Assembly: GCF_013214165.1 (NCBI RefSeq)
Contig: NZ_JABSSM010000022.1
Span: 1-64,000 of the forward strand
DNA from: Shewanella sp.
Lineage (GTDB): Bacteria; Pseudomonadota; Gammaproteobacteria; Enterobacterales; Shewanellaceae
DNA: 64,000 nt
Direction of reading: 5' to 3'
How positions within the stretch are numbered: position 1 is the stretch's first letter; each line of letters begins with the position of its first letter. Of the stretch, positions 6,447 to 23,406 are shown in pieces. The translations under genes were made by a program, and so were the position numbers. The notes under the pieces were generated by a model. The model saw only the letters and a list, made by a program, of their open reading frames with translations, searched no databases and was not told the DNA's origin.

Positions 6447-7682
6447 CTAGTTGTCATTCCATCGTTTAAATATCAGTGAGGTGTTGATCCCACCGAAGGC
6501 GAAGTTGTTACTCATCACATGATCTGTGTCGATATGGCGAATGTCATCGCGGATATAATCTAACTCGCCGCAGGCGGGATCGATCTCGGTCAGGTTGAGT
6601 GTGGGCGCGAACCAGCCTTCATTCATCATCTCTATGCTGACCCAAGCTTCTAGTGCACCACAGGCACCTAAGGTGTGACCCGTGTAGCTCTTAAGAGAAG
6701 AGATTGGCATGTTAGGGCCAAATACTGAGCTGGTGGCTTGAGTCTCGGCGATATCGCCTCTGTCTGTCGCGGTGCCATGGGCGTTGACATAGCCGATGGC
6801 ATCGGGCGCTAATTGGGCATCTTTCAATGCATGTCTGATGGCGATTGCCATGGTGGTCGCATTGGGCTGAGTCACATGCACGCCATCAGAGTTAGTGCCA
6901 AAGCCGACGATCTCGGCATATATCTTAGCACCTCTAGAGCGAGCATGTTCCAGCTCCTCGAGCACTAAGGTGCAGGCACCTTCACCGATCACCAGACCGT
7001 CCCGATTCTTATCGAAGGGGCTGGGAGTCAGTTTAGGGGTGTCATTTTTGGTGCTGGTGGCAAATAGAGTATCGAAGACCACGGCTTCGGTGGGGCATAG
7101 CTCCTCGCCGCCGCCGGCAAGCATCAGGTCTTGCTGACCATATTTTATCGCTTCATAGGCGTAACCTATCCCCTGACTCCCCGAGGTGCAGGCGCTGCTG
7201 GTGGTGTGCACCCGGCCCTTGAGACCGAAGAAGACACCCACGTTGACAGCTGTGGTGTGGGCCATCATGCGAATATAGCTGGTGGCGGTGATGCCTGACA
7301 TGTCGCCATTCTTGAGCATGTCGCCGAAGGCTATGAGGGGATCGGTACTGCCTGTAGATGAGCCATAGGCTATGCCCATGGCACCGGAACTGACAACCGG
7401 ATCATCGAGTAAGTTTGCATCTATAAGGGCGAGTTCACTGGCTCTGGTCGCCATTAAAGAGACTCGTCCCATGGAGCGTACCTTTTTACGCGAGTAGTGT
7501 GCTGGCTTGTCGAAATCGGTTACCGGGGCTGCTAGGCGGGTGTTGAGACCTGCATATCTGTCCCATTCATCGAAGCGAACCACGCAGTTTTTCTGCGCTT
7601 TTAAATTTCTGGCGATAGTCGGCCAGTCTTGGCCTAGGCTGGATATGCCCCCGATGCCGGTGATCACTACACGTCTGGACAT
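6447..7682 (-). CDS. apeR: APE beta-ketoacyl-ACP synthase ApeR
   Basis: FabF-type ketosynthase of 411 residues, the last gene of the APE operon. The catalytic triad is visible: Cys in TTSSACTSGSQG, His in NAHGTATDRGD and His in YTGHTLGACG. In characterised APE systems ApeR is a second ketosynthase acting with the ApeO-ApeC pair during polyene elongation on carrier proteins. Its start overlaps the stop of apeQ by one base (TAATG-type coupling). Symbol by position and family. Confidence 0.9.
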   Translation of the reverse strand: MSRRVVITGIGGISSLGQDWPTIARNLKAQKNCVVRFDEWDRYAGLNTRLAAPVTDFDKPAHYSRKKVRSMGRVSLMATRASELALIDANLLDDPVVSSGAMGIAYGSSTGSTDPLIAFGDMLKNGDMSGITATSYIRMMAHTTAVNVGVFFGLKGRVHTTSSACTSGSQGIGYAYEAIKYGQQDLMLAGGGEELCPTEAVVFDTLFATSTKNDTPKLTPSPFDKNRDGLVIGEGACTLVLEELEHARSRGAKIYAEIVGFGTNSDGVHVTQPNATTMAIAIRHALKDAQLAPDAIGYVNAHGTATDRGDIAETQATSSVFGPNMPISSLKSYTGHTLGACGALEAWVSIEMMNEGWFAPTLNLTEIDPACGELDYIRDDIRHIDTDHVMSNNFAFGGINTSLIFKRWNDN

Positions 7683-8416
7683 TAGATCATGCCTCCGTTG
7701 ACCGAGATAACTTGCCTGGTGATGTAAGCTGCATCTTCAGACATCAAAAACTTAGCGAGTCCCGCAATTTCAGCGGGTTTACCCATGCGCCGCATAGGCA
7801 CGATATCCTTGATCATATCTTTGGGGAAATCTGCCACCATATCTGTCTCTATAAGCCCTGGAGCGATGCAGTTTACGGTGATCTTACGTTTTGCCAGCTC
7901 AAGAGACAGGGCCTTAGTCGCGCCTATGATGCCCGCTTTTGAGGCGCTGTAATTGACCTGACCTCTGTTACCTGCGATACCCGATACTGATGCCATGGTG
8001 ATGATGCGGCCGCCTTTGCGGGTCTGGATCATCGGCATTATGGTGGGATGGATCACATTGTAGAAACCATCTAGGTTGGTATGTACCACCTTGTCCCATT
8101 CATTTTCTGTCATGGCGGGAAATGCGGTATCGCAATTGATCCCCGCATTGAGTATCACGCCATAATAGGCGCCATGCTGCTCGATATCGGCTGTGATGGC
8201 GGCCTTGACTCGCTCTCGATGGGCGATATCAAACTGCAGGCAAGACACCGAGACACCCAGGGCAATAAGCTCGCGCTTAGTCTGTTCGGCCGCGTCGACA
8301 TTGCTGTGAAAATGCAGGGCGATATCGAATCCAGCCTCCGCCAGCTGTAAGGCGATGGCTTTCCCTATGCCGCGGCTAGAACCTGTGATCAGTACTCTTC
8401 TCTTTTCGGTGTTCAT
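7682..8416 (-). CDS. apeQ: APE 3-ketoacyl-ACP reductase ApeQ (FabG-like)
   Basis: Short-chain dehydrogenase of 244 residues. The NAD(P)H-binding TGSSRGIG is at residues 11-18, NAG lies in ILNAGINCD, and the catalytic Ser and YxxxK are in SVSG...YSASK. It reduces the beta-keto group after each extension step of polyene synthesis. It overlaps apeP by 4 bp and apeR by 1 bp. Length and motifs match FabG; its placement between apeP and apeR makes the pigment role more likely than housekeeping fatty-acid synthesis. Confidence 0.92.
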   Translation of the reverse strand: MNTEKRRVLITGSSRGIGKAIALQLAEAGFDIALHFHSNVDAAEQTKRELIALGVSVSCLQFDIAHRERVKAAITADIEQHGAYYGVILNAGINCDTAFPAMTENEWDKVVHTNLDGFYNVIHPTIMPMIQTRKGGRIITMASVSGIAGNRGQVNYSASKAGIIGATKALSLELAKRKITVNCIAPGLIETDMVADFPKDMIKDIVPMRRMGKPAEIAGLAKFLMSEDAAYITRQVISVNGGMI

Positions 8417-8913
8417 TTTTGCTCTTCCTGCTTGCTGTCAGAGATATAGGTTTCGATATCCTGAGGCTGAAATACATTCACGTTCGCCGCTGCGACTAAG
8501 GTTTGTTGATGAAATATCTGGCAATCGAATACCGCCAGCCCTGACTCTTCCTGGTAGAGCCTGGTGACCCGAGTCTGATAACTTTCCCCCAGCCGATAGT
8601 CGGGTATGTGCATCTGCAGCTTACGTGTGCCAAGCAAGAAACCGACGCGGATAATATCGCCACGGGATCTGGCTTCCACACCCGCGAGGGCGGCAATGCT
8701 CTGAGCCATATACTCGATACCCACGTAATTGGGCACGCCGTTAAGCTCTGCATCGAAATAGGGGCTGAGTTCGCCGATATCTACCTGGGTCAACAGGCTG
8801 TCAGTTTCATAGCTGATGAGGCGGTCGATCAAGATCATAGGATCTCTATGGGGGATCACATCTGCAATCGCCATCTGCGATAGTACATGGGCTGACATCT
8901 GTTGTGGACTCAT
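8413..8913 (-). CDS. apeP: APE hotdog-fold dehydratase ApeP
   Basis: Protein of 166 residues of the 3-hydroxyacyl-ACP dehydratase (hotdog) type, with PHRDPMILIDRL near residue 22 and a YVGIEYMAQSIAALAG helix. In studied APE systems ApeP pairs with the smaller dehydratase ApeI to remove water and create the conjugated double bonds. It overlaps apeO by 1 bp and apeQ by 4 bp. Confidence 0.88.
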   Translation of the reverse strand: MSPQQMSAHVLSQMAIADVIPHRDPMILIDRLISYETDSLLTQVDIGELSPYFDAELNGVPNYVGIEYMAQSIAALAGVEARSRGDIIRVGFLLGTRKLQMHIPDYRLGESYQTRVTRLYQEESGLAVFDCQIFHQQTLVAAANVNVFQPQDIETYISDSKQEEQK

Positions 8914-10124
8914 TATTTATCTTTCCCTCGCGGGTTCCTGGCGAAAATGAGGCTGGCATTACTGCCGCCGAAGGCGAAGGAGTTACTCATCAAATAGTGT
9001 AGTTCAGCACTCTGGCCTTGGCTGACTAAGGGAAGTGATGGATCTTGTGGATCTTGAACGCCGTCCCATATCTGCGGTGGCAAGATTTGTCGGCTGTTCT
9101 CCTGGCTCAATAACAGGTAACAAAATGCGGCCTCTATGGCGCCTGCTGCGCCTAAGGTGTGGCCGGTGATGGGCTTGGTGGAGCTACAGGGGGGAGGCGT
9201 AGCGCCGAATACCTGCTCGATGGCTCTGCTCTCCATGGCATCATTTTTTTGGGTCGCCGTGCCATGTAGGTTGATGTAGTCGATATCAGCTGCAGCCAGA
9301 TTGGCATCTGCCAGCGCCGACTGAATGGCCGCGATGGCGCCGCGTCCTTGTGGATGTGGCGCCGAGATGTGGTGGGCATCACTGGACTCGCCGATACCGG
9401 CTAAGATCACGCTGCTGGTGTCGTCAGCAGTGAGCTTTTGCAGGATAAAAAGGGCTGCGCCTTCACCTATGTTGATGCCATTTCGGTTCGCACTGAAGGG
9501 TTGGCAATGACCCTTGGAGACAGATTCAAGCGAGCTAAAACCGTTAAGGGTGAGCTTGCAAAGACTGTCGCCGCCGCCGACGATCACCAGATCGCACAGA
9601 TCGGCTTGCAATAGGCGTCTGGCACTGGCGAAGACCTTGGCGCTGGATGAACAGGCGGTGGATACCGTGTAACAGGGGCCGGAAATGTCGAAATAGTGAC
9701 GTAAAAAGTCACTGGCGTTACCTAGCTCTTGCTGGGAATAGCGATATTGTTCAGGGAAGGCCCCGGTTTGCGATCTTATCTTTAGGGCATCTTCACCGGC
9801 TTGGATCCCAGATGTGCTGGTGCCTATGACAATACCTATCCTTTGAGGCCCCCAGTCTACTTTTGCCCGGGCGACCCTGTCGGCAATCTGCTCTGCAGCG
9901 CACAGGAGCAGCCGATTGTTGCGGCAGTCATATTTGGCCAGGGACTCGGGTATCACCGGCAAGTCGAAGCTGACTTGTCCCACTAAGGTCTCGGCATCGG
10001 GGATGATATCGGTTCGATTCTTCATCGCGCCGACATCCCCCCTCGAGAGTCGGGATAGTACGATTGCAGCAGTCTTGCCCAGAGGCGTACACAGGCCTAA
10101 GTGTGAGATGGCTATTTTAGTCAT
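8913..10124 (-). CDS. apeO: APE beta-ketoacyl-ACP synthase ApeO
   Basis: Ketosynthase of 403 residues with an intact Cys-His-His site (VSTACSSSAK, NLHGTATQKND, ITGHTLGAAG). In APE biosynthesis ApeO forms a heterodimer with ApeC, which acts as chain-length factor, and elongates the aryl starter with malonyl units on ApeE/ApeF. It starts 53 bp after apeN, the largest gap inside the operon, so a weak internal promoter is possible. It overlaps apeP by one base. Confidence 0.9.
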   Translation of the reverse strand: MTKIAISHLGLCTPLGKTAAIVLSRLSRGDVGAMKNRTDIIPDAETLVGQVSFDLPVIPESLAKYDCRNNRLLLCAAEQIADRVARAKVDWGPQRIGIVIGTSTSGIQAGEDALKIRSQTGAFPEQYRYSQQELGNASDFLRHYFDISGPCYTVSTACSSSAKVFASARRLLQADLCDLVIVGGGDSLCKLTLNGFSSLESVSKGHCQPFSANRNGINIGEGAALFILQKLTADDTSSVILAGIGESSDAHHISAPHPQGRGAIAAIQSALADANLAAADIDYINLHGTATQKNDAMESRAIEQVFGATPPPCSSTKPITGHTLGAAGAIEAAFCYLLLSQENSRQILPPQIWDGVQDPQDPSLPLVSQGQSAELHYLMSNSFAFGGSNASLIFARNPRGKDK

Positions 10125-10177
10125 GGTGTCTTTTTATGTTAACTCTTTGATAATGTGGTCAAGGAAAACCCCATGGG

Positions 10178-10873
10178 CTAAATTGGCGTTAGCGTTAACT
10201 CAAATTTAGCTTGCGGTATCTTCAGCGCTATTTCTGCCTGCCAAGGGTCATCATGACTGTACTCGATATTCACAATACTGTCATTCTGGGTGCCTGTGTT
10301 TATATTCGTTGTCGGATTGCTTGGGTCGGCATATATTTTTCGGCACCGAGATCCGCCACAATCCCCAGAGATCAGTATAGCCCCTTGTAAATGGGCATTT
10401 ACCGTCTCTTCGGGCCAATAAATCAACTGAATCAGTGCCAGTAGGTACTCGGCCTTGAATTCGCTGCCCAATAATACACTCTGCTCACTGGTGAGCGTGC
10501 TGCCGTCATAGATCAAGGTAAACAGTGCCTGACCCAAGGGGGCAAGGCCGACTAAGGTGAGCCCGTTGGCATCGATCTCGACTTGTGTCATCAGTTCATG
10601 TTGAGATGAATCGACCCTAATAGCGGCTTTTTGTGTTGCCGAGCGTACCCAGATCTGATTCGTTTCGTCTAAGGGAATAGGCGCGAGGCAATAATTCACC
10701 TCTTTGGCCAGCGCGACACACGTTTGCCTCTGCAACGTCTGGCTGCAGGCCGACAGCATGAATGCCAACATAATCGTGGCACTCAGGGCTATCACAGTTT
10801 TTAGTTTGTGTTTAAGGCCGGTAAGCAAGCTCAGTGACATCAGAATGAACCCCTTATCTGCATAATTCGACAA
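10178..10873 (-). CDS. apeN: APE cluster DUF3261-type lipoprotein ApeN
   Basis: Protein of 231 residues with a signal sequence and a lipobox (LMLAFMLSAC). The start may be the internal ATG after the first ten residues (MSLSLLTGLK), because the annotated start overlaps the upstream flavoprotein gene by 20 bp. DUF3261 lipoproteins occur in APE clusters between the exporter genes and apeO and are thought to help deliver the polyene lipid to the outer membrane, together with the LolA-like ApeL and the MMPL exporter ApeM. The assignment rests mainly on position. Confidence 0.72.
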   Translation of the reverse strand: MSNYADKGFILMSLSLLTGLKHKLKTVIALSATIMLAFMLSACSQTLQRQTCVALAKEVNYCLAPIPLDETNQIWVRSATQKAAIRVDSSQHELMTQVEIDANGLTLVGLAPLGQALFTLIYDGSTLTSEQSVLLGSEFKAEYLLALIQLIYWPEETVNAHLQGAILISGDCGGSRCRKIYADPSNPTTNINTGTQNDSIVNIEYSHDDPWQAEIALKIPQAKFELTLTPI

Positions 10874-12119
10874 TCATGTTTAAGCGGCGCTCGGAGTCAC
10901 TCACGAAGGGATTGCTCTCATCCCAGGCGTATCCGGCTAAGATAGAGCAGATCATCTGCTTGATGTTATTATCGGGCGCGTCGAAAAATATGATCTCCTG
11001 GAAGCGACCATCGTACCAAGCCTCGACATAGGTTCTAAAGGTATCGACGCCGCGCATAAGGGGCTTAGCATATTCGGCATCCCAGTCCACCTCTTCACCA
11101 TCGAGTTGCCTGATGACACATTTAGCCGCCATTGAGGCCGATTGCATAGCGATAGTGACCCCAGAAGAAAAAACCGGGTCGAGAAACTCGCCAGCATTGC
11201 CCAGTAAGGCAAACTTGTCGCTGGCTAGGGTGGTGACATTAGCGGAGTAGCCCTTGAGCAGTGAGCATTCCCTTACTAGCTCGGCATTGGCTAAGAGTCT
11301 GTGTAAGTCGGGTTCCTGTTTTATCATCTCCATCAGCACATTCTGCAGATCGGCTTCAACATCCCCCAAGAGATGTGGCTCGGCCACAACGCCTAATGAA
11401 CACCTGCTGTCACTCAAGGGGATCAACCAGTACCAGATATCTTTATTTTCAGGATGAACGCTGATTAGAATTTTCTGCCGATCGAAATGGACATTTTCCT
11501 CAGCACTGGGATCGATATTATCCTCAATATGGGTAAACACTGCGGTGCGACTCGGTAGGCAAGAGGGTTTCTCCAGCTCCAGTAATCTAGGTAGCACTCG
11601 GCCAAATCCACTGGCATCGAGCAGGTATTTAGCCTGAATACAATAGACTTCCCCTTGGCGGTTGCTGATGGTGAGTATCGGGTCTTGAGTCAGATCTATG
11701 GCTTGAACCGATTCACCAAAACGTATCTCAACCCCTTGGGACTCGGCCGTATCTGCCAGTAGTTTGTCGAAACTGGCACGCTCTACCTGAAACGTAGTGC
11801 CAGGGCCGCTGGAAAATTTATCGGTGAAATCGAAGTGAGTATATTTTCCTCTAGAGCTGAAGGCAGCACCATTTTTAAACTGAAAGCCAGCCTGGTTAAC
11901 GGCCTCGAGCATGTTGGCCTCTTCGATGACTCTCATACAGGCAGGTAATAGACTCTCACCGATGGAGAAGCGAGGGAAATCTTGTTTCTCTATGACTATG
12001 ACTCGCTTTCCTTGCTGGTGGAGTAGGCTGGCGGCAATGCTACCCGATGGACCGGCACCGATAATAGCAACGTCATAATCTGCTTGTATGCCTGGGTTTG
12101 AATGGGGTGCTTGCATCAC
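10854..12119 (-). CDS. FAD-dependent oxidoreductase, flavin halogenase-like, in APE operon
   Basis: Flavoprotein of 421 residues. The N-terminal dinucleotide fold is clear (IIGAGPSGSIAASLL near residue 19, then VIVIEKQDFPRFSIGES). Residues 229-234 are WYWLIP, the WxWxIP signature of flavin-dependent halogenases, and Lys82 (FQFKNGAAF) lies about where such enzymes carry their catalytic lysine. Both features also occur in relatives that do not halogenate, so halogenation of the aryl head is only a possibility. It overlaps apeM and apeN, so it belongs to the operon. I recall no standard ape letter for it. Confidence 0.78.
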   Translation of the reverse strand: MMQAPHSNPGIQADYDVAIIGAGPSGSIAASLLHQQGKRVIVIEKQDFPRFSIGESLLPACMRVIEEANMLEAVNQAGFQFKNGAAFSSRGKYTHFDFTDKFSSGPGTTFQVERASFDKLLADTAESQGVEIRFGESVQAIDLTQDPILTISNRQGEVYCIQAKYLLDASGFGRVLPRLLELEKPSCLPSRTAVFTHIEDNIDPSAEENVHFDRQKILISVHPENKDIWYWLIPLSDSRCSLGVVAEPHLLGDVEADLQNVLMEMIKQEPDLHRLLANAELVRECSLLKGYSANVTTLASDKFALLGNAGEFLDPVFSSGVTIAMQSASMAAKCVIRQLDGEEVDWDAEYAKPLMRGVDTFRTYVEAWYDGRFQEIIFFDAPDNNIKQMICSILAGYAWDESNPFVSDSERRLNMIVELCR

Positions 12120-14512
12120 TTAACAGTCCTTGTAAAAGTTTGAATAAAGGGGGAGAGCATAAAGGTGAAACTTATCCCTATCAGTAGGGTTAATCCAAAA
12201 AAGTGTATTGCCGGCGTACTGCTAAATGCCAGTAAGCCAAATGCGAGTATCGTCGAGCTAGCCGACATAAACACGGCCATCATGACGCCTCTACTCTCTT
12301 GTTTCGATTCGGCGAAGAACACGCTGTGATCGACGCCGATACCGAAAACGAGGATCAGCGCCAGGGAATGAAATAGGGTGAGTGAGGCCCCCATTATTCC
12401 CAGTGTGGCTAAGGTAAAAATCGCCGAAAGTGCCGGTACTGCAACGACCAGACAGGCTAATTTTATGCTGAAACGGCTGCAGAAAATCAAGGTTGCAGCC
12501 AGCATGGCCACAGCCAGCAAGATCAAGGTCAACTGACGATACTTGCCCATGACCTTAGAGATATCGCCGACCTTATCGACCAGCTGCACATGGGGGAAAT
12601 CTGCGAAGAAATGACTGAGTGTATCTATATCTGCGATCCCGCCGAGTAACACTAGGGCACCGAATTCTTCTTGACCACTTGAAGGTAGTATCCATAAGGG
12701 AGCGAAGAGTTTGCCTGCTGGCGAAGCCAAGAAGGAGCTGGCATCGATATAATGGCCCTTGGCTGCCAGATACGCGTGTTTGAGCTTAGGGGCTAGCGCA
12801 TCATCCAGGCCTAGAGTGTCAATAACCTGGATCAGATTCTGCTGATAAATCTCACCCTGAAGGCGATAATTTCTCGCTTGCCTGTCATGACTTGGTAGAT
12901 ACTTGCTCAGGCTAAATGAGTTACCAATTAGCTGTTGATTCACCGCATGGTTTAATCTTGGGGCCAGATCTTCTAAATGCTGTAGCAAAGCTTGCTCGCT
13001 GTCGCCCCTGACTAACAGAAATTGATTATCCGTGCCGCCACTGAGCAGCGCTCTCAAGGTGTTCTCTGGTACTTGTACCTCAGGTGGGCTCTGCTGCAGG
13101 TTGCGGATATCATCATCGCTTGTCAGTCTCAGTATGCCAAAACTTGATACCGATAAGCAGAGGATAATGATTAGGATCAAGCCTTTAGGCGTGAGTTTAA
13201 TCAGCAGAGAGTCGATGATTTGTAGGTATCGGTCTGCTAATTTGAGTCGCTGCTCACCCTTAGGCAAGCTGCCAGATGCCAATAGTGGATAGGCGAGTAC
13301 TAAGGTGATATAAGCCGACATTAGCCCGGAGGCACAGAACACGGCGACCTGTTGCATGCCGGGAAACGGTGCAAAACCTATGCTGGAGTAAGCTAAGACG
13401 CTGGTGATAAGGGCCAGAGTGATCGCGGGAAATATGTGTTGGATAACTTGGGTGGCACTGGCGTCAGGCTTATTTAGGCGTTCACAATAGAAGTGAAAAC
13501 TATAATCGATGGCTATGCCTATCAAGCTGGTGCCGAAGACGAGCGTCAGCAGGTGCAATTCGGCAAATACCCAGCTAGTCATGACGACGGCGACTAACAT
13601 GCTAGTCGTTATGGTCAGTAAGGCTATGGTCAGTGGCATCAGGGAACGAAATGCCAGCCAAACTAATAGACACGCGCCTAAGAGTGAGGCCAGCCCAAGG
13701 CTGGTGACTTCACTCTTAGCGAGCTGGGTCGCGGCCGCCGCATGAAAAAGTGCGCCGGCTCTGAGTATCTCTATCTCTGTATCTTGTCGCGCTAAGTGCT
13801 CGAATGCCTGAGTGAGTACCGCTATCTGCCGATCTTGCACCTTAGGGTTGAAGGCGCTGCCGACCCCTTTTGCCATGACTATGGCTGCCACTCTTTCCCT
13901 TGAATCTACTCCCGGCAACCTGGCAATCAAAATGCCTTGATGGACTTCCAATGCTTGTTGGGGAGCCAGTGCTTGCAAGTTTTGCGGGTAGAGCAGCAGG
14001 GGGTCATTGGCTAACAGGCCGCTGCTTGCGTAGCTAAATGCGTTATAGATTTGCTGCTGAGCTTGGTCTATGAGGCTGTCTAGCTTGCCGCTCTCTAGTG
14101 TGTGAGCCTGATCTGGTGTTAACAGGCTAAACCTATAGGGAAAATAATAGTTATTCAGAGACTCGGCCTGATTGATGTCGGCGCTCTTTATATCGACAAA
14201 GATGCCTTTACCTTGTTCATTTAGCTGTGTCATCACCCCTTGCGCAGCCTGGATCGCTTGTGCCTGGTTATCGGCAACAAAACCAAGATAGATTGAGTTT
14301 GAGAGTTGTTCTTCTACCCGCGACAGGGCGATATCTGTGAGGGGGTCTTGCTGAACATTTGGCAACATGGCCAAGATATCACTCTGAATTCTAGTGCCGC
14401 CTTGCCAGAGTGAGCAGCCGATAATCACGATGAGGGACATCATGATGAGCCAGATGGAGAATTTAAATTTTGCCGAATATTGGCCCAGCAGAGCGGCGAG
14501 CTTATCGATCAT
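12116..14512 (-). CDS. apeM: APE exporter of the MMPL/RND superfamily, ApeM
   Basis: Inner-membrane transporter of 798 residues arranged as two repeats. Each repeat has one helix, a large periplasmic loop and a block of five helices; the second helix block (KYRQLTLILLAVAMLAATLIF onwards) resembles the first. LIGIAIDYSFHFY and VFGIGVDHSVFFAES are the paired helix-4-type motifs of MMPL proteins, with an acidic residue in each. It probably moves the finished aryl polyene lipid across the inner membrane, working with ApeL and ApeN. Overlaps of 4 bp join it to apeL and to the flavoprotein gene. Confidence 0.9.
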   Translation of the reverse strand: MIDKLAALLGQYSAKFKFSIWLIMMSLIVIIGCSLWQGGTRIQSDILAMLPNVQQDPLTDIALSRVEEQLSNSIYLGFVADNQAQAIQAAQGVMTQLNEQGKGIFVDIKSADINQAESLNNYYFPYRFSLLTPDQAHTLESGKLDSLIDQAQQQIYNAFSYASSGLLANDPLLLYPQNLQALAPQQALEVHQGILIARLPGVDSRERVAAIVMAKGVGSAFNPKVQDRQIAVLTQAFEHLARQDTEIEILRAGALFHAAAATQLAKSEVTSLGLASLLGACLLVWLAFRSLMPLTIALLTITTSMLVAVVMTSWVFAELHLLTLVFGTSLIGIAIDYSFHFYCERLNKPDASATQVIQHIFPAITLALITSVLAYSSIGFAPFPGMQQVAVFCASGLMSAYITLVLAYPLLASGSLPKGEQRLKLADRYLQIIDSLLIKLTPKGLILIIILCLSVSSFGILRLTSDDDIRNLQQSPPEVQVPENTLRALLSGGTDNQFLLVRGDSEQALLQHLEDLAPRLNHAVNQQLIGNSFSLSKYLPSHDRQARNYRLQGEIYQQNLIQVIDTLGLDDALAPKLKHAYLAAKGHYIDASSFLASPAGKLFAPLWILPSSGQEEFGALVLLGGIADIDTLSHFFADFPHVQLVDKVGDISKVMGKYRQLTLILLAVAMLAATLIFCSRFSIKLACLVVAVPALSAIFTLATLGIMGASLTLFHSLALILVFGIGVDHSVFFAESKQESRGVMMAVFMSASSTILAFGLLAFSSTPAIHFFGLTLLIGISFTFMLSPFIQTFTRTVK

Positions 14513-15315
14513 GATGCCTGCTTAGGTTTACGTTCTGGCTCTGTGGTGGCTTGAGAAGGCTTGCCTTGTTGCTGAATGAAATCAGGTGAAACTAGCTCTA
14601 ACTCGGCTTCTGTCAGGGGACCATTGTTGATCGCTTCGAATTCGATTCTGCTGGTGTCCCCATTAGCGCTGACTAGTGTGAGCGCCGAGATCTGGCTGCT
14701 ACCTTCTAATATCATCTGTGGGATGGCTTTTAGCAGCAAGGGATCTTTGGGGATCAAGCCCAGTGTCCAAGGTGCCTGTGAGTCAGGTGCCAGCAAGTAA
14801 AAGCTAAAGTGCTCATCTAGGGTCTGCAGCTCGCCACCGAGTAGGGCCTTGAGTAAGATGGGTAAGGTCTGCGCCAGGGCGCCGGCTCCTTGATTACCGC
14901 GGGTTTGAGAGACCTGTTGCTTGCCCGAACTATCGATCTGAATTAATGCATCGTCCTTGAGTATCAAGGTGGATTTGAAGGGCGTCTCTTGATTCCAGAC
15001 CAGACCCAGTTGGGCATCGAATATAAAACTCCCCTTGCTAATTAGGGGTTTCTTAAGCACCTTTAGGCTTCGGTATTGGGTAAACTTTCCCCTAGCATGT
15101 TGGTTTAATTCGAGTCTCTTGCTGAGCTTCTCTATCTCTTGATTGTTTACTTCGGATTGAAACAGAGCCTCAAACTTGGCCGCTTGTGAACTGATAACAG
15201 ATGATTCACTGGTGTTAGCCAGGGCAGGGCTACCCACGAGTGTGAGTAATAAGGCCGATAGCAATAATAGCGTCGAGGAAAATTCGCCACGTGAGCCGAA
15301 CTGGATGTTAATCAT
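14509..15315 (-). CDS. apeL: APE LolA-like periplasmic carrier ApeL
   Basis: Protein of 268 residues with an N-terminal signal sequence (LLLSALLLTLVGSPALA), so periplasmic. The body matches the LolA-like outer-membrane lipoprotein carrier fold seen in APE clusters (HARGKFTQYRSLKVLKKPLIS and FDAQLGLVWNQETPF). The family probably shields a hydrophobic ligand while it crosses the periplasm; here the ligand would be the APE lipid released by ApeM. The Lys/Gln-rich tail is likely disordered. Coupled by 4-bp overlaps on both sides. Confidence 0.82.
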   Translation of the reverse strand: MINIQFGSRGEFSSTLLLLSALLLTLVGSPALANTSESSVISSQAAKFEALFQSEVNNQEIEKLSKRLELNQHARGKFTQYRSLKVLKKPLISKGSFIFDAQLGLVWNQETPFKSTLILKDDALIQIDSSGKQQVSQTRGNQGAGALAQTLPILLKALLGGELQTLDEHFSFYLLAPDSQAPWTLGLIPKDPLLLKAIPQMILEGSSQISALTLVSANGDTSRIEFEAINNGPLTEAELELVSPDFIQQQGKPSQATTEPERKPKQAS

Positions 15316-15839
15316 CGCCCATTCTCCTCAGTACTTCTTGTTTTAGTACCTTGAGTTTCAATGCCTTGAGTTTGAGCGCTATCGATTGCAGCGCCGTCGA
15401 TTTCGATGCCGGGAATGAACTGAGCTAGCTTCTGCCTGAATATGGTCGGAGTCACGAAGCACAGCTCATTGTTACTATCTACGGCAGCTTGGATGGTATA
15501 ACCTTTAGTGAGACGTTTATTAGTGGCTAGATCTCTGATTTGGTAGTTGATCTTCATGCGGTTTTCCCATTCGACCAGGGAGGCTGTCACCTTCACTCTT
15601 TGATCGAAGGTACTAGGTTGCACATACTTTATCTGTAGATCCACGATAGGCCAGGAATAGCCCGAGGCCAACATTTCACGATAACCATAGCCAAACATAT
15701 CCAACAGCTGACATCTGGCCATCTCGAAATAACGCAGATAGTTACCATGCCAGGTGATCCCCATGGAATCGACATCATGAAAGGGGATCAAGATCTCCAG
15801 CTCTGTGGTTAAGATAGATTTGTTGGAGCTTGAGATCAT
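15312..15839 (-). CDS. apeK: APE acyl-thioesterase ApeK (4HBT hotdog family)
   Basis: Thioesterase with the 4-hydroxybenzoyl-CoA thioesterase motif HDVDSMGITWHGNYLRYFEMAR, where the Asp is the expected catalytic residue. Its role is to release or edit acyl intermediates on the carrier proteins. The ORF track starts five codons earlier, at 15854, but the ATG at 15839 overlaps the TGA of the ammonia-lyase gene (TGATG), as do other joints in this operon, so I prefer 175 residues. The tail (residues about 145-175) is rich in Thr, Gln and Glu and looks disordered. Confidence 0.82.
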   Translation of the reverse strand: MISSSNKSILTTELEILIPFHDVDSMGITWHGNYLRYFEMARCQLLDMFGYGYREMLASGYSWPIVDLQIKYVQPSTFDQRVKVTASLVEWENRMKINYQIRDLATNKRLTKGYTIQAAVDSNNELCFVTPTIFRQKLAQFIPGIEIDGAAIDSAQTQGIETQGTKTRSTEENGR

Positions 15840-17398
15840 CAACAGACTTCCCACTCACCGGCCTGGATCTTATCTACCGTTTGTCTAAGCACAGACTCTA
15901 GTGGCCTATCTTCGGTTAACAGCTCAAAATCTGCCCTGACCTGATCTAATGTTTTCGCCAACGAAGGGGTGAGTGAAGACGGGCACAGCTCATCTTGTGA
16001 GATACGTAAATTGATCCCTTGAGTCATGGCCAGCAAAGCGGCAGCGGCAACTTGTTCGGTCAGCTGCAATACCCGCATGCAATCTCGCGCGGCTATGGTG
16101 CCCATGCTCACCTTGTCCTGATTGTGACATTCGGTGGAGCGGGAAAATACACTGGCTGGCATGGTATTTTTCAGCGCTTCGGCGGTCCAGGCGGATGCGC
16201 CTATTTGTACGGCCTTGAAGCCATGGTTGATGGAGCGTCTGGCTCCGGTCGCCGCCGATAAATTAGCGGGAAGACCATTGTTGAACTTAGGGTCCATGAC
16301 CAGAGCCAGCTGACGATCGATGAGATCGGCGATGTTGGCGACTGTGTTCTTCATCGAGTCCATCACGAAGGCGATATGACCGCCGTAGAAGTGACCCCCA
16401 TGCAGTATGTGCTCACCTTCGGCATCGACTATCGGGTTGTCGTTGGCACTGTTAAGCTCGGTCTCGATAAACTGACGCATGAAGGGCAGTGCATCTTGCA
16501 TCACGCCTATGATATGGGGGGCGCAGCGAATCGAATATCTGTCCTGGAGCCGATCAGAATTACGTGGATGCTCATGGTGATTGAGATCGGTACGGATCCA
16601 GGCGGCTATCTGGTTCTGTCCAGGATGAGGCTTGGCGGCAAATAAAATAGCGTCGAAATGGTTCGAATTCCCCTTCAGTGTGAGGGAAGCCATGGCCGTG
16701 AGTCGACTGGCCAGACGACACAGATACTGGCCCCTGTCGAAGGCGAGGCAGGCGAGTGCCGTCATGACGGCTGTGCCGTTCATCAAGGCTAAGCCTTCTT
16801 TGGGGCGTAGCTTCAATGGCGTGATGTTAAGCTTGGCATAGACATCGGCAGTAGGCTGACGTACGCCTTGGTAGATCACGTCGCGCTCACCCACCAGCAC
16901 GGCGGCAAGATAAGATAAGGGGGTAAGATCGCCACTGGCACCGACTGAGCCCTCTTCGGGGATCACGGGAATAATATTTAAGTTGAGTAGCATCTCTATG
17001 CGCTGCAGCAGCTCATAGCTCACCCCAGACTTGCCAATGGCCAGAGAGCTGAGGCGACAGGCCATCACGGCTCTGGCCTGTACTGTGCTTAGGATCTCAC
17101 CGAGTCCACAACCGTGGAAACGCAAAAGATGCAAGGGCAGTTCGTGAACCAGATCGAGTCCGACGGTGACAGTGCAAGAGTCACCGTAACCTGTGGTGAC
17201 ACCATAGACGACGCCTTCTTCATTGAGCAAGCTGTCGATGAAGAGGGCCCCCTTCTGGATATAGGTCTGAAAATCACCGGTATCTGTTAATTTTGCCTTA
17301 GCGCCCTTGGCCACAGCCACCACATCTTCTAGGGTTAACGCCCTGAGACCAAATTGAACAATCATGTCCGCTGGGTTTGCTTGGCTATTCTGAGTCAT
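15839..17398 (-). CDS. MIO-type aromatic amino acid ammonia-lyase in APE operon
   Basis: Lyase of 519 residues of the histidine/phenylalanine/tyrosine ammonia-lyase superfamily. Ala154-Ser155-Gly156 in EEGSVGASGDLTP would form the MIO electrophile. The inner loop Tyr lies in GVTTGYGDS. The specificity pair on the substrate ring side reads as Phe94-His95 (LLRFHGCG) by eye alignment. That differs from the usual His-Leu of bacterial tyrosine lyases and Phe-Leu of phenylalanine lyases, so the substrate is uncertain. The likely job is to make cinnamate or p-coumarate as aryl precursor, as in flexirubin clusters. It replaces nothing in the E. coli order; it is inserted between apeJ and apeK. Confidence 0.87.
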   Translation of the reverse strand: MTQNSQANPADMIVQFGLRALTLEDVVAVAKGAKAKLTDTGDFQTYIQKGALFIDSLLNEEGVVYGVTTGYGDSCTVTVGLDLVHELPLHLLRFHGCGLGEILSTVQARAVMACRLSSLAIGKSGVSYELLQRIEMLLNLNIIPVIPEEGSVGASGDLTPLSYLAAVLVGERDVIYQGVRQPTADVYAKLNITPLKLRPKEGLALMNGTAVMTALACLAFDRGQYLCRLASRLTAMASLTLKGNSNHFDAILFAAKPHPGQNQIAAWIRTDLNHHEHPRNSDRLQDRYSIRCAPHIIGVMQDALPFMRQFIETELNSANDNPIVDAEGEHILHGGHFYGGHIAFVMDSMKNTVANIADLIDRQLALVMDPKFNNGLPANLSAATGARRSINHGFKAVQIGASAWTAEALKNTMPASVFSRSTECHNQDKVSMGTIAARDCMRVLQLTEQVAAAALLAMTQGINLRISQDELCPSSLTPSLAKTLDQVRADFELLTEDRPLESVLRQTVDKIQAGEWEVC

Positions 17399-19114
17399 CT
17401 AGTTATCTGTCCTGTCTTTATCCTGAGAGTTGGCGCGTTGGATATCGTCATCTTTACGCCAAAAATCAAAAAAATTAAACCATTGCAAGGGTTCTCGCCG
17501 TGCAAAATATTCGAGTCGTGCACTGTAATGATTGACGGCTTGTTCGAGCCTCTGCATGCGTCCTTTTCTGGGGCCCTTGAGTGTATTTGAAAACGTTTCC
17601 AGGTGGACCACATAGCGGCCCTGTTCTCGCAGGCAGAACATGAGGTAGACAGGACAATCGAGCAGGCCGGCAAGGATAAAGGGTCCCTGAGGGAAGGGGG
17701 CCGGTTCTCCCATAAAGGGGGCATATATGACCCGCCCTTGGCTGTTGGACGAGGTCCTGTCTCCTGCGATGACGACCAGTTCACCGTCTTCTATCTTCTG
17801 CTGCAATAGCATAGAGGTGCTGGGGCCGAGCTCGCTGACCTGGATAAGGTTGACCGAACTGTCCGGATTGAGCTGTTTCAGTACCCGGTTAAAGTTCTCG
17901 GCATTATCGGTGAGCACCATGACGTTCACTTTCACCTTTTTTTGGTGAACCGATATCGCGCGGCATAGCTCTAAATTACCTAGGTGAGACACCAATAATA
18001 CGGCACCTTGGCCGGCTTCGAGCCGATCCGCCAGTAGGACTCTATTGGGAAAGTCTATCTGGCTGAGCTGGATGCGGTCGCACCAGGCATCGATGCGGTC
18101 AAGGGCCGCATTACCAAAGGCAAAGAAATGTTTGAGGCCGTGCTGCCATCCTAAGTCTCCCTGCAGTTGAGGGTGCTGGGGATCGCATGCTTTTACTCGG
18201 TTGAGAAACTCGAGGGAGGCCTTTCTCGCGTTGCGCCCGGTGAGGAAAAAATACAAGATCACCGGATACATGATGGCGCGACAAAGCCAGTGGCCACCGA
18301 GTTTATAGCTTGATGCCAGCAGCTTGATGCCCCAGTAACTGCCTCGCTCGCCTATGCTGGACCAGTGGGAGTTTGATTGATCACGATTACTGCCGCCTAT
18401 TATCTTGCGGGGCAAACGTTTCAGCATGCCGAAGAAGAGACGAGTATGCATACCTGAAATACGCAAGTTATCCCATAAGCCCTGAAAATGGCTGATGCCG
18501 TCTTCGGGATAGATGACTCGGGTCGGCAGATGAATGACTTGTACGCCTTGCCAGTGCAAGCGAACCATGACTTCTATATCGAAATCCATGCGCTCGCCGA
18601 GGGCATTGGTGAGGAAAAGCTGCTCGGTTGCTGCCAGGGGATAGACACGAAAACCGCACATGGCGTCCTGAATATCGAGACTTAGAGTCTCAACCCATAC
18701 CCAAAAGTGAGTGAGGTAGCGAGCGTATAAACGGATTTTAGGCACTGACTCATCGTATTGAGGCAAGCCGGAGATGAGTGCCTCTGGTTTTTCTTCGGCC
18801 CGAGCGAGCATGGCCGGAATGTCGTCTAAATTATGCTGGCCATCGGCATCGACCTGTAATGCATGGCTGTAACCCTCCCTGTAAGCGGCGCGCAATCCTG
18901 TGGTCACCGCGGCGCCTTTGCCGCGATTAAAGGGGTGGTGCAACAGGGTGACCCAGGAATAACGCTGGGCCAGAGATGTCAGCAGGTAGCGAGTGGCATC
19001 ATCGCTGCCATCGTTAACCAAATAGCAAGGCAGCTCAAGATGTGCCAGCCTCTCGAGGGTTGCCTCGATGGCGACAACATGGTTGTAATTAGGGATGACT
19101 AATGCGACTCGCAT
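17399..19114 (-). CDS. apeJ: APE glycosyltransferase-acyltransferase fusion ApeJ
   Basis: Two-domain protein of 571 residues. Residues 1 to about 230 are a family 2 glycosyltransferase (MRVALVIPNYNH, DGSDDATR, the DADGQHN metal-binding motif). The rest is an LpxL/HtrB-type acyltransferase with SHLGNLELCRA near residue 360 and GDRTS further on. The fusion is typical of APE clusters, and it probably attaches sugar and acyl groups to build the lipid anchor of the pigment. Its start shares one base with the stop of apeI, and it abuts the ammonia-lyase gene. Confidence 0.9.
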   Translation of the reverse strand: MRVALVIPNYNHVVAIEATLERLAHLELPCYLVNDGSDDATRYLLTSLAQRYSWVTLLHHPFNRGKGAAVTTGLRAAYREGYSHALQVDADGQHNLDDIPAMLARAEEKPEALISGLPQYDESVPKIRLYARYLTHFWVWVETLSLDIQDAMCGFRVYPLAATEQLFLTNALGERMDFDIEVMVRLHWQGVQVIHLPTRVIYPEDGISHFQGLWDNLRISGMHTRLFFGMLKRLPRKIIGGSNRDQSNSHWSSIGERGSYWGIKLLASSYKLGGHWLCRAIMYPVILYFFLTGRNARKASLEFLNRVKACDPQHPQLQGDLGWQHGLKHFFAFGNAALDRIDAWCDRIQLSQIDFPNRVLLADRLEAGQGAVLLVSHLGNLELCRAISVHQKKVKVNVMVLTDNAENFNRVLKQLNPDSSVNLIQVSELGPSTSMLLQQKIEDGELVVIAGDRTSSNSQGRVIYAPFMGEPAPFPQGPFILAGLLDCPVYLMFCLREQGRYVVHLETFSNTLKGPRKGRMQRLEQAVNHYSARLEYFARREPLQWFNFFDFWRKDDDIQRANSQDKDRTDN

Positions 19115-19491
19115 CAGCTGGCCTCACGAATAAGTGTTGATTCGGTCGCGAGTGCGACCCGACCCGATGCGAAACGTTTGTCGCCATCGAAGTAACGGAA
19201 AATCAACTTGGTCTTGGCCTTGTTCTCGCTGATCTCCAGGGTCACTTCAGAGTCAGGTAACATCAACTGCTGAAACTTGAGCACTTCTAAGGTGGCAATA
19301 TTTCGCGGGTAGCCGAAATGCTGGCAACCTAAGCGAATGGCCCAATCCAGTTGGGTCACGCCGGGAAGCACGGCCTGTTCGGGAAAGTGCCCCTTAAAAA
19401 AGGGTAAATTTGCGGCGATGAAGAGGCGAAATACGATGGCATCGCCATCACAGCTCTTGGATAGAATTTGAGGCAAACTGGATTTAATCAT
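19114..19491 (-). CDS. apeI: APE hotdog dehydratase ApeI
   Basis: Small hotdog protein of 125 residues. FFKGHFPEQAVLPGVTQLDW near residue 31 has the FabZ-type GHFP-x-x-PGV motif with the catalytic His. In APE pathways ApeI and ApeP form a dehydratase pair. It overlaps apeH by 8 bp and apeJ by 1 bp. Confidence 0.88.
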   Translation of the reverse strand: MIKSSLPQILSKSCDGDAIVFRLFIAANLPFFKGHFPEQAVLPGVTQLDWAIRLGCQHFGYPRNIATLEVLKFQQLMLPDSEVTLEISENKAKTKLIFRYFDGDKRFASGRVALATESTLIREAS

Positions 19492-20848
19492 GGTTGAATA
19501 ACTCGGTTAGCTGTGCCTGAATGCGTTTGCCTTGTTTGTTGACGGGCAGCCGATCTGGGTAGCGCCAACGTCTGGGTAAGGTCACCCGTTCAAACTGGCT
19601 CAACAGCTGGGCCTTGAGTAAATTGTTTAGGCTCAGCTTGCCTTCACTCTCGAGGTGGGCCTTACCATGTTCAGATAGTTCGATGACGGCGCCCAGTTGC
19701 ATGCGTGGCTGATTTAACATCACCAGGGCGGCATGACTGACTAGGGGGTGGCTCTCGAGTAGTGTCTCCATCTGCACCAGGCTGACACGTTTCTCTTCGA
19801 TCTTGATGATGCGATCCAGGCGTCCTTGCAGTCGAAACAGCCCAGGCTCGATGAGGGTTATCTTGTCTTCACATCTAAGCCAATGCTGATCTTCTAAATA
19901 GGGAGACTTGACGGTGAGGGCACCATCTTTGGGATCGGGTGATATTTCAACATTGGCAAAGGCTTGCCATGGTTGATCTTGCCTCATCTGGCGACGATAG
20001 CCGATACCACCGGTTTCCGTGCTACCGAACACTTCGATGGGCAGGCGTCCATAACAATGAGCTATGCCTTGCGCGGCGTCGAAGCTCAATGGACCGCCGG
20101 AACTGAAGACTAGGCTGGGTGATCTAAGTTGTTTCTCATTGTTTAGAGACTCAGGTAAGCGGGACAACTGAGCCGGACTGCTGATGAGGCACAGATTAGG
20201 AAACAGGCTGGTGTAGTAGGTCAGGGTCTCTGGATATTCGATGATATCACTCAAGAAGGGACGCCCTGCGGCTAATGGCCAAAGGATCTTGAACAATAAG
20301 CCATAAATATGTTGATGTGAAACCGTCGATACCACGCTACATTGGGGCAAGTGCTTGGCGAATGTGTGCTCCAACACGGTCACTTCGGCGTCTAATTGAG
20401 CGAGTGACTTACGGACGGCTTTAGGCTGGCCACTACTGCCCGAGGTATACAGCACCAGCTCGCCCCATTTCTCGCTGGTCGGCCATTGGCTTGTAGCCGA
20501 TGAGAGCTCTTTCTTAAGCATGACTAATGCCTTACCTTCACATAAAGCTTCATCGGAAATCACGCCATCGAATTTATGGGTCAAGTCACTCAAGCTACCC
20601 GTCTGGGTATTAGTCGGTAAGATGATCTCTTTTCCGGCGAGTAGTGCGGCACATAAACCGACAGCAAACAGATCACTGCAATCACAGGCTAATAACCAAC
20701 GTCGGCAAGGTGATTGACTCAGTTGCCGATGCACACTCGCAACCTGGTTGGTGAATGCACCGCCAGTGATAATATCATGATGGTTAAAACTGATAAGCTG
20801 TTGGCGCGAAGGCCCCTTGGATAACCAAGATTTGAGTAACGCTGTCAT
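19484..20848 (-). CDS. apeH: APE acyl-ACP/acyl-CoA ligase ApeH (ANL superfamily)
   Basis: AMP-forming ligase of 454 residues. The phosphate-binding loop LVLYTSGSSGQPKAVRKS and the FGSTETGGIGYR motif are present, and GRLDRIIKIEEKRVSL is the hinge to a short C-terminal domain. In APE synthesis it activates the aromatic acid starter and loads it onto a carrier protein. Here the acid could come from the operon's own ammonia-lyase. Start overlaps apeG by 4 bp. Confidence 0.9.
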   Translation of the reverse strand: MTALLKSWLSKGPSRQQLISFNHHDIITGGAFTNQVASVHRQLSQSPCRRWLLACDCSDLFAVGLCAALLAGKEIILPTNTQTGSLSDLTHKFDGVISDEALCEGKALVMLKKELSSATSQWPTSEKWGELVLYTSGSSGQPKAVRKSLAQLDAEVTVLEHTFAKHLPQCSVVSTVSHQHIYGLLFKILWPLAAGRPFLSDIIEYPETLTYYTSLFPNLCLISSPAQLSRLPESLNNEKQLRSPSLVFSSGGPLSFDAAQGIAHCYGRLPIEVFGSTETGGIGYRRQMRQDQPWQAFANVEISPDPKDGALTVKSPYLEDQHWLRCEDKITLIEPGLFRLQGRLDRIIKIEEKRVSLVQMETLLESHPLVSHAALVMLNQPRMQLGAVIELSEHGKAHLESEGKLSLNNLLKAQLLSQFERVTLPRRWRYPDRLPVNKQGKRIQAQLTELFNHD

Positions 20849-21393
20849 GATTTATTCAACCAAATAGTTCTATACAACCACTCGCCACCCAGTAGCGAAC
20901 CGATAAGTAGATAGGCGATGAGCCCATTATACAGGGTCCAGATCTCTAACGAGGCGTAGAGCGCCGTGTATAACGCCATTGACCCATTAAAAACAAATAA
21001 GCCACACCATATCAGGGTGACTTTTTTCAGGTAAGGAGTCGCCTCGTGCGGCAGTTCGGGCTCCTTTAATCTTGCTAGTCTCTCTATCATGCTAGGGCCT
21101 AACTTTAGAGAGTAAACAAACAGCATCAGCATACTGAGATTTATGACTACAGGATAATAGAGTAACCAGTCATGCCGTTTGGCGATAAAACTTGCCGCCG
21201 TTAATCCTATGCCTACTAAAATCGGCAAGATCATGGCTTTGACTTGTTGCTTCTGAATCAATAATCGTAGGATTAAGATGAAACAAAGCACCATAGCTAT
21301 GGTGCCAGCAGGCAAATAGTTGAGTCCGAAATAGACTGCTAAAGGGTATCCCAGCAGCAGAATACCGGTGACTATTTGCAAAAATAGCCGCAT
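20845..21393 (-). CDS. apeG: APE cluster integral membrane protein ApeG (COG4648)
   Basis: Hydrophobic protein of 182 residues with about six membrane helices separated by short loops (MRLFLQIVTGILLLGYPLAV at the start, LYNGLIAYLLIGSLLGGEWLYR at the end). COG4648 proteins are found almost only in APE clusters; the function is not established. It shares one base with the end of apeF. Confidence 0.8.
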   Translation of the reverse strand: MRLFLQIVTGILLLGYPLAVYFGLNYLPAGTIAMVLCFILILRLLIQKQQVKAMILPILVGIGLTAASFIAKRHDWLLYYPVVINLSMLMLFVYSLKLGPSMIERLARLKEPELPHEATPYLKKVTLIWCGLFVFNGSMALYTALYASLEIWTLYNGLIAYLLIGSLLGGEWLYRTIWLNKS

Positions 21394-21641
21394 TACTCTT
21401 GAACGAGTCCTTCGATGGCAGAAACCACATCGTCTACGGTGCGCACGGCTTTAAATTCTTCAGGTTTGATCTTCTTGCCTGTCATCTGTTGTAGCTTGAT
21501 GACGAGATCGACAGCATCGATACTGTCCAGATCGAGTTCTTCGTATAGGGACGCTGATGGTGAGATATCGGCCTCATCGATCTCGAATTCTTCGACTAAA
21601 ATGCGAGTTAAGGTGTGCAGTATTTGTTCACGGCTTTGCAT
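21393..21641 (-). CDS. apeF: APE acyl carrier protein ApeF
   Basis: Carrier protein of 82 residues, acidic and helical. The phosphopantetheine attachment Ser is in DLDSIDAVDLV near residue 40. One of two carriers in the cluster that hold the growing polyene or the starter. It lies 8 bp after apeE. Confidence 0.9.
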   Translation of the reverse strand: MQSREQILHTLTRILVEEFEIDEADISPSASLYEELDLDSIDAVDLVIKLQQMTGKKIKPEEFKAVRTVDDVVSAIEGLVQE

Positions 21642-21649
21642 AATCTCTC

Positions 21650-21907
21650 CTAAACTCGCTGCGATTCGATAAAGCTGGCCAGACTCGACACGCTGTAAAA
21701 ATGTGCCTTGGTGGCATCTGAATTGGCTTCGATTTTGACATCGAACTGCTTCTTAATTGCCAGTCCAAGCTCCAGGGCATCGATTGAATCTAGTCCTAGA
21801 CCTTCACCGAATAGCGCCGCCTCGGTGTCGATATCATCGACAGTGACATCTTCGAGATCTAGGCTATCTATGATTAATTGTTTTATTTCGTTATCTAGTT
21901 TCATCAT
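21650..21907 (-). CDS. apeE: APE acyl carrier protein ApeE
   Basis: Carrier protein of 85 residues with the attachment Ser in GLGLDSIDALELGLA near residue 40. It overlaps the end of apeD by 17 bp. The split of work between ApeE and ApeF cannot be read from sequence; in characterised systems the growing chain is mainly on ApeE and the starter is also loaded through a carrier. Confidence 0.9.
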   Translation of the reverse strand: MMKLDNEIKQLIIDSLDLEDVTVDDIDTEAALFGEGLGLDSIDALELGLAIKKQFDVKIEANSDATKAHFYSVSSLASFIESQRV

Positions 21908-22697
21908 GTTCTAAGTTCGTCTTAAAGTAATCTTCCAGATCCCGTGTAAGTTGACGTGCCATTTTCGCATCGCCTCCGGCAATCGCATCATACCTGATAT
22001 GGTCGATGGTTTCGCCTACTTCGACTCGCATGCCTATGGTGCGACGGGGTATTTGATACCAGGCTTCTTGTTTACTCAAGCCTGGTGCATTGGTACGAAG
22101 AACCACAGGCAACAAATCTGTCTTGGTTCTCAGTGCAATATTGGCGGCGCCTCTGGCAAAGCTGTTGATGCTAGTGCCTAAGACTGTGCGTGTGCCTTCG
22201 GGGAAAATGATTAAATTGGTGCCGTTTTTTAGCACATGTCTGCAATCTTCCAGTAGCAATTCGGCGCCTCGATTGGGGATATAACCGGCACAGGCGACCA
22301 CTCCACGCATGAAAGGGTTGCGCCAGATCCCTTGTTTAACGATACAGCCCGCGTTGGGCATCAAGCTGATCAATACCACCACATCGACCAGAGTCGGATG
22401 ATTAACGATCACCACTCTGCCTTTAGCCGAGGTGAGACGCGCTATATTTTCAGGACTCACCTTGATGACCCCCGCCCAGGTTAGCATATAAACGAAGCCG
22501 CGAAACATGATGTGTACCGCCTGCTGTACGCGGCGGATCCGCTCTAATTCTGTGCCTGGCCAGAACCTCAACAGGGGTAACAGGGTTAACGAGCTCAGCA
22601 AGCCACCGATACCGAAGGTGATATAACAAGTAACGCCGCCTATCCATCTGGGAACATAGGCTAGTCCTGTTAATCTGACTGCGGGGGTATCAGTCAA
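21891..22697 (-). CDS. apeD: APE lysophospholipid-type acyltransferase ApeD
   Basis: PlsC-like acyltransferase of 268 residues. VNHPTLVDVVV is the NHx4D-like motif near residue 98, and FPEGTRT the phosphate-binding motif near 165. An N-terminal hydrophobic segment (CYITFGIGGLLSSLTLLPLL) anchors it to the inner membrane. It probably acylates the glycosylated polyene anchor. It overlaps apeC by 8 bp. Confidence 0.88.
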   Translation of the reverse strand: MTDTPAVRLTGLAYVPRWIGGVTCYITFGIGGLLSSLTLLPLLRFWPGTELERIRRVQQAVHIMFRGFVYMLTWAGVIKVSPENIARLTSAKGRVVIVNHPTLVDVVVLISLMPNAGCIVKQGIWRNPFMRGVVACAGYIPNRGAELLLEDCRHVLKNGTNLIIFPEGTRTVLGTSINSFARGAANIALRTKTDLLPVVLRTNAPGLSKQEAWYQIPRRTIGMRVEVGETIDHIRYDAIAGGDAKMARQLTRDLEDYFKTNLEHDETR

Positions 22698-23406
22698 AGC
22701 TGAGTTGCCAATGATAGTGACCCAAGTTACCGGCTAGAGTCCTGACAACAGACAAACTGTGTATCAGCTCAGCATAACTAATCTTTCTATTTCCCCGGGG
22801 CTGACTGAGCGTTAATTGTGGTTTTGTACATGTCTCATCGTATCGCTGGAGAACTAAGGCAAGAGAGATGGGGAGGCTAATGTCATCAACAAAATGTGTG
22901 TATATGTCGGGCACAGGCTGATCGCCGAAGACGAGTAATACCGGGGCCGGATCTTCATGGAGCAGGGCATAGGCTTCGATAAGTGCCTGTGGCAAGCTTT
23001 CTTCACCCGCGGCAATAGACGTCGACGGGGCTCGATTATCCGTAAGAATACTGTAAATTCCGCTTGCTGTGTTGTGCACCGATTGGCTAAAGGCCGTTGG
23101 AGAAAGAGGTTCTTGTGCGACTAGGTTATCGAGTAAGCCTAAGGTGCGATGTAACTCTCCGTGCCTGGAGGCAAAAATTGTGCGGCATGAATTAGGTGCA
23201 TCGGCCTGAAATGCGGCCTCGAGTTGCATCTTGGTCAAGGCGCTATAGCGTCGTCGCTGCATTGCAGGGACTCGTGCTAATTTAGGCGCATCAGGCACAG
23301 AGGGGCTTTGGTTATCATCGGAACTTTGCCAATGCTGCCAATCTTGGGGTTGCTGATGTCGGGGGGACCAGGCTCCCCAAGAACAAATGTTAAACCTTAA
23401 CTGCAA
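22690..23406 (-). CDS. apeC: APE ketosynthase-like chain-length factor ApeC
   Basis: First gene of the operon, 238 residues. It resembles the N-terminal half of a ketosynthase ('Ketoacyl-synt_2') with FASRHGELHRTLGLLDNL and AFSQSVHNTASGIYSI, but the catalytic Cys motif is absent. That is what is expected of the chain-length-factor partner of ApeO. Upstream 240 bp contain a possible promoter. The usual neighbours apeA and apeB are not seen on this side; a DUF3014 gene comes next. Confidence 0.85.
   Translation of the reverse strand: MQLRFNICSWGAWSPRHQQPQDWQHWQSSDDNQSPSVPDAPKLARVPAMQRRRYSALTKMQLEAAFQADAPNSCRTIFASRHGELHRTLGLLDNLVAQEPLSPTAFSQSVHNTASGIYSILTDNRAPSTSIAAGEESLPQALIEAYALLHEDPAPVLLVFGDQPVPDIYTHFVDDISLPISLALVLQRYDETCTKPQLTLSQPRGNRKISYAELIHSLSVVRTLAGNLGHYHWQLSFD

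Follow-up and report, generated by a model that had tools for sequence, protein, structure and literature searches.

Aryl-polyene clusters that carry an ammonia-lyase have been described before: the lyase served as a characteristic gene for calling such clusters in a 2021 study, with Aliivibrio fischeri ES114 as the reference (PMC8719888), and had been noted in the A. fischeri cluster earlier (PMC5851621). By description, this type, APE Vf (MIBiG BGC0000837), combines an aryl-polyene gene set with an ammonia-lyase in the same way as the locus analyzed here. An MIO lyase also starts the aryl-polyene chain of flexirubin in Chitinophaga pinensis, where the tyrosine ammonia-lyase (TAL) FlxA carries motif types that are, again by description, like those reported below; it joins a first specificity motif resembling that of histidine ammonia-lyases (HALs) to a second one of the type found in TALs and phenylalanine ammonia-lyases (PALs), prefers tyrosine about 1010-fold over phenylalanine, and is inactive on histidine (PMC3992019). 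The TAL BagA/FevW of Streptomyces, which is strictly active on tyrosine, belongs to another pathway and shares the histidine at the second position of the specificity pair. The aryl-polyene cluster of E. coli CFT073, from whose description the ape gene names and set were taken (PMC8253772), is alike in gene set and order, but contains no lyase, with apeJ adjoining apeK; its starter is predicted to be 4-hydroxybenzoate supplied by UbiC (PMC8253772), and it includes a methyltransferase gene, apeB, whereas none was seen in the operon described here.

The window, by which we mean the entire stretch of 64,000 nucleotides from a Shewanella sp. contig (NZ_JABSSM010000022.1, positions 1 to 64,000), contains an operon reaching from apeC (23406) to apeR (6447), with the gene set of E. 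coli plus a lyase and an FAD-dependent enzyme (Table 1). The apeC-apeR set together with the linked lyase between apeJ and apeK places it among the lyase-bearing clusters of the APE Vf type. Both the arrangement and the specificity pair of the lyase, which was reported in 2017, are already known.

Table 1. Features of the aryl-polyene operon and of its ammonia-lyase (positions refer to the window).
Feature	Position	Strand	Basis
apeR, ketosynthase	6447..7682	-	
apeQ, ketoreductase	7682..8416	-	
apeP, dehydratase	8413..8913	-	
apeO, ketosynthase	8913..10124	-	
apeN, DUF3261	10178..10873	-	
FAD-dependent enzyme, halogenase/monooxygenase type	10854..12119	-	
apeM, MMPL/RND-type transporter	12116..14512	-	
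apeL, LolA-like carrier	14509..15315	-	
apeK, thioesterase, from the ATG sharing one base with the lyase stop	15312..15839	-	
MIO aromatic amino acid ammonia-lyase, 519 aa (predicted tyrosine ammonia-lyase)	15839..17398	-	ORF, Pfam, alignment
Codons of second specificity motif Glu423-Cys-His-Asn-Gln427 (TAL/PAL type)	16118..16132	-	alignment
Codons of MIO triad Ala154-Ser155-Gly156	16931..16939	-	ORF translation and alignment
Codons of specificity pair Phe94-His95	17114..17119	-	alignment; coordinates counted from the start codon
apeJ, glycosyltransferase/acyltransferase	17399..19114	-	
apeI, dehydratase	19114..19491	-	
apeH, aryl-acid activating AMP ligase	19484..20848	-	
apeG, membrane protein, without family match	20845..21393	-	
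apeF, acyl carrier protein	21393..21641	-	
apeE, acyl carrier protein	21650..21907	-	
apeD, acyltransferase	21891..22697	-	
apeC, chain-length factor	22690..23406	-	gene order and annotated relative in locus L188; without NCBIfam match

The lyase reading frame fits its tabulated interval exactly, and the Pfam family Lyase_aromatic covers the entire protein (528 bits), which makes it a member of the MIO aromatic amino acid lyase superfamily. A first-pass annotation had placed the gene between apeJ and apeK with overlapping starts. The placement is correct, and the overlap exists on one side: the TGA of the lyase shares one base with the ATG of apeK (TGATG), while the TAG of apeJ directly abuts the ATG of the lyase (TAGATG) with zero overlap. 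From these two junctions, apeJ, the lyase and apeK look translationally coupled.

The organism is a near relative of Shewanella benthica, whose lyases are the closest, at 97% identity. The gene is present in 92 of 98 genomes of the genus and in 93 of 296 of the order; in a class-wide sample of 369 genomes, a relative with at least 54% identity was found in 16, with the next best matches at no more than 38%, and the other aryl-polyene clusters of this sample lack the gene. For the near group (identity of at least 52%), 80 loci came from named genomes and 15 from the class sample; all 95 lie inside aryl-polyene clusters, and apeK adjoins the lyase wherever the contig continues. One further locus, in the annotated record of Pseudoalteromonas donghaensis, has the same lyase layout, and distant lyases lie outside aryl-polyene clusters. 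In many marine bacteria, operons of this kind regularly include the lyase. The suggestion that the operon encodes the lyase for its own aryl precursor is supported, and the place beside apeK is conserved in many genera. Some loci vary in detail. In L117 and L122 the lyase still precedes apeK, and apeJ is relocated elsewhere; in L174, L178, L116 and others two genes stand for apeJ, one for its glycosyltransferase half and one for its acyltransferase half; and in L051 (Shewanella sp. KJ10-1) the lyase, apeH, apeJ and apeO each appear broken into two reading frames, pointing to errors in sequencing or to decay of the cluster.

All catalytic residues of the window lyase are present (Y65, N207, Q285, Y288, R291), along with the intact Ala-Ser-Gly triad at 154-156 that the first-pass annotation had already recognized. 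That annotation had also read the specificity positions as Phe-His and had named a careful alignment with other residues there as what would overturn this. In a gapless alignment, Phe94-His95 stand opposite the Phe-Leu (FL) pair of Anabaena and Nostoc PAL, so the pair itself is as first read. Its interpretation as an atypical hybrid of PAL and HAL residues has to be given up: Phe-His (FH) is found in 122 of the 126 operon-linked loci, which comprise 116 distinct sequences, and Tyr-His (YH) in the remaining 4, with His95 invariant, which makes Phe-His the ordinary state of the clade. In the tree, the 25 operon-linked lyases included form one side of a fully supported branch, with three of the four YH sequences at its base, and HALs, the Rhodobacter sphaeroides TAL (RsTAL) type, the aminomutase and the Anabaena PAL type fall outside it, in a deeper order that is unsure owing to long branches. 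According to a survey from 2017, most relatives of StlA and BagA have YH or FH, pairs that it called TAL-like; it tied the second-position His to the strict TAL activity of BagA and described FH as "possibly intermediary" between FL (PAL) and YH (TAL) (PMC5651878).

The second motif carries the distinction from HALs. Two motifs serve to predict specificity in these enzymes, and the second has Glu in HALs and Gln in TALs or PALs (PMC3992019). It reads ECHNQD in the window lyase vs SANQED in HALs, and Lys395 and His333 stand in place of the Met and Ser of HALs. A HAL that makes urocanate, whether to utilize histidine or to provide an imidazole starter, could be argued from the second-position His and from the HAL models, which give the top raw NCBIfam score (388-391 bits); these scores, however, stay under the cut-offs of 524-539, which rules out HutH membership, Asn426 and Gln427 replace the Gln and Glu of HALs, Lys395 replaces Met, and the tree sets the window lyase outside the HAL group. 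Among the three MIO lyases of the assembly (4.8 Mb, 181 contigs), moreover, a true HutH (L139) lies behind hutU, is PpHAL-like and scores 767 bits to the HAL model; with this separate hutU-hutH pair, histidine use is independent of the operon enzyme. Histidine as the substrate is therefore very unlikely, and we rejected the HAL reading.

The third MIO lyase of the genome belongs to a second, separate aryl cluster (L138; contig C95, 86500-106400), which spans 8510-14845, is apparently one operon and encodes a ScyA-like TPP enzyme, the lyase, a FAAL-type AMP ligase and a KASIII. The lyase has an Ala-Leu pair and is of the Anabaena PAL type.

On the question of whether the substrate is tyrosine or PHENYLALANINE, we predict, with a probability of about 0.72, that the enzyme serves the aryl-polyene pigment as a dedicated tyrosine ammonia-lyase. 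Family, MIO triad and catalytic residues, second motif, fixed operon place and the single clade with His95 are read directly from the sequences; tyrosine itself we infer from the combination of His95 in the pair with Gln427 in the second motif, a pattern that the literature ascribes to tyrosine enzymes (FlxA, BagA). His95 also lies opposite the His of the Ser-His pair in Streptomyces tyrosine aminomutase, a residue that we take to contact the phenol in aminomutase structures. The FlxA model (NF053541) yields 341 bits against a cut-off of 700, so the window lyase is not a member, and the BagA/FevW model ranks with the highest-scoring NCBIfam models and comes first for the YH relative L128 (384 and 411 bits; cut-off 1000).

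Because the first position of the pair is Phe, a mixed or Phe-preferring enzyme is possible. A dual enzyme, in which Phe94 would admit phenylalanine and His95 would hold the tyrosine hydroxyl, with ApeH choosing between cinnamate and 4-coumarate, is consistent with Phe94, which is of the PAL type, and with the possibly intermediary status proposed for FH (PMC5651878), but the characterized enzymes with His at the second position, FlxA and BagA, are strict or strongly selective for tyrosine, and we regard dual use as rather unlikely. Still less probable is a PAL forming cinnamate and leading to a phenyl-headed pigment, as the first-pass annotation had proposed from the Phe-His pair. Besides Phe94, this proposal could draw on the remainder of the pocket, which is close to Anabaena PAL (the tabulated sites match except for positions 71 and 95; the Glu448 column of that table is locally misaligned for Anabaena PAL, an ungapped stretch pairing Glu with Glu, and the Glu423 pairing was taken from the ungapped stretch), and on the His89Phe exchange that switches RsTAL to phenylalanine, giving a PAL (PMC9002059). 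Against it, PALs have Phe-Leu or an otherwise hydrophobic pair, with a hydrophobic second residue, where this clade has an invariant His; YH, a TAL pair, occurs in sister sequences; and the hydroxyl of aryl polyenes normally comes from the precursor (PMC8253772). Taken with the FlxA and BagA pattern, the YH sisters leave the view of FH as a hybrid pointing to cinnamate unsupported. A 2,3-aminomutase releasing a beta-amino acid would account for the good alignment to the Streptomyces tyrosine aminomutase, yet the aminomutase models score far under their cut-offs (307 of 501 and 311 of 800 bits) and the operon offers no evident use for such a product, which makes this reading scarcely credible. 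In a limited literature search, we found no characterized FH enzyme with measured kinetics. Should the FH clade accept phenylalanine, alone or together with tyrosine, which we consider doubtful, many marine gammaproteobacteria would make undescribed aryl polyenes with phenyl or mixed heads. With its invariant His95 preceded by either Phe or Tyr, the clade provides a clean test of the weight of each specificity position in MIO lyases.

A monomer model computed from 22 sequences has a clear fold (pTM 0.87), with pLDDT below 50 at residues 66-77, 94-97, 151-158, 331-335 and 418-425, which constitute the active site. The active sites of MIO lyases form between chains, so low confidence there is expected for a single modelled chain, and it precludes reading pocket geometry from the model. 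A fold search returned tyrosine aminomutase and R. sphaeroides TAL first, by small margins, with aminomutase, TAL, PAL and HAL structures all within TM 0.82-0.86, too close to discriminate specificity; model and search support the fold, not the specificity.

For a tyrosine ammonia-lyase, the proposed route would begin with the removal of ammonia from L-tyrosine to give 4-coumarate, which ApeH would load onto an acyl carrier protein for extension by the ketosynthase set to a 4-hydroxyphenyl polyene. 4-Coumarate is thus the probable starter under this reading. A 4-coumaroyl group equals a 4-hydroxybenzoyl group plus one vinyl unit, and the two starts would lead into the same polyene series, coumarate needing one extension fewer, which gives no reason to expect a new chromophore head. 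The different head that had been suggested could arise, but is not the probable result; the hydroxyl, commonly precursor-derived in aryl polyenes (PMC8253772), would be lost only upon a switch to phenylalanine. The genome also contains ubiC, which makes 4-hydroxybenzoate available independently of the lyase. If the lyase is a TAL, lyase-bearing clusters would use 4-coumarate and lyase-free ones, as in E. coli, 4-hydroxybenzoate for the same chromophore series, and this would settle which starter is used for a very widespread type of pigment in Shewanella and its relatives.

ApeH was considered as a witness to the starter and discarded: it scores 75-102 bits against the 4-coumarate ligase model (cut-off 335), equally weakly in clusters with and without a lyase. 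In the ApeH tree the presence of a lyase is clustered (4 changes vs 10.9 in shuffles), which we did not accept as proof of a starter switch, since shared descent alone could produce this clustering.

One further gene lies within the operon and another beside it. The FAD-dependent enzyme between apeM and apeN is of the tryptophan-halogenase/CmlS type, occurs also in most other lyase-bearing and in several lyase-free clusters, and may modify the aryl head by hydroxylation or halogenation. A gene for a 2OG-Fe(II) oxygenase follows apeR on the same strand (5800-6393); a clear relative at this position was seen in just one locus, from S. benthica (L005).
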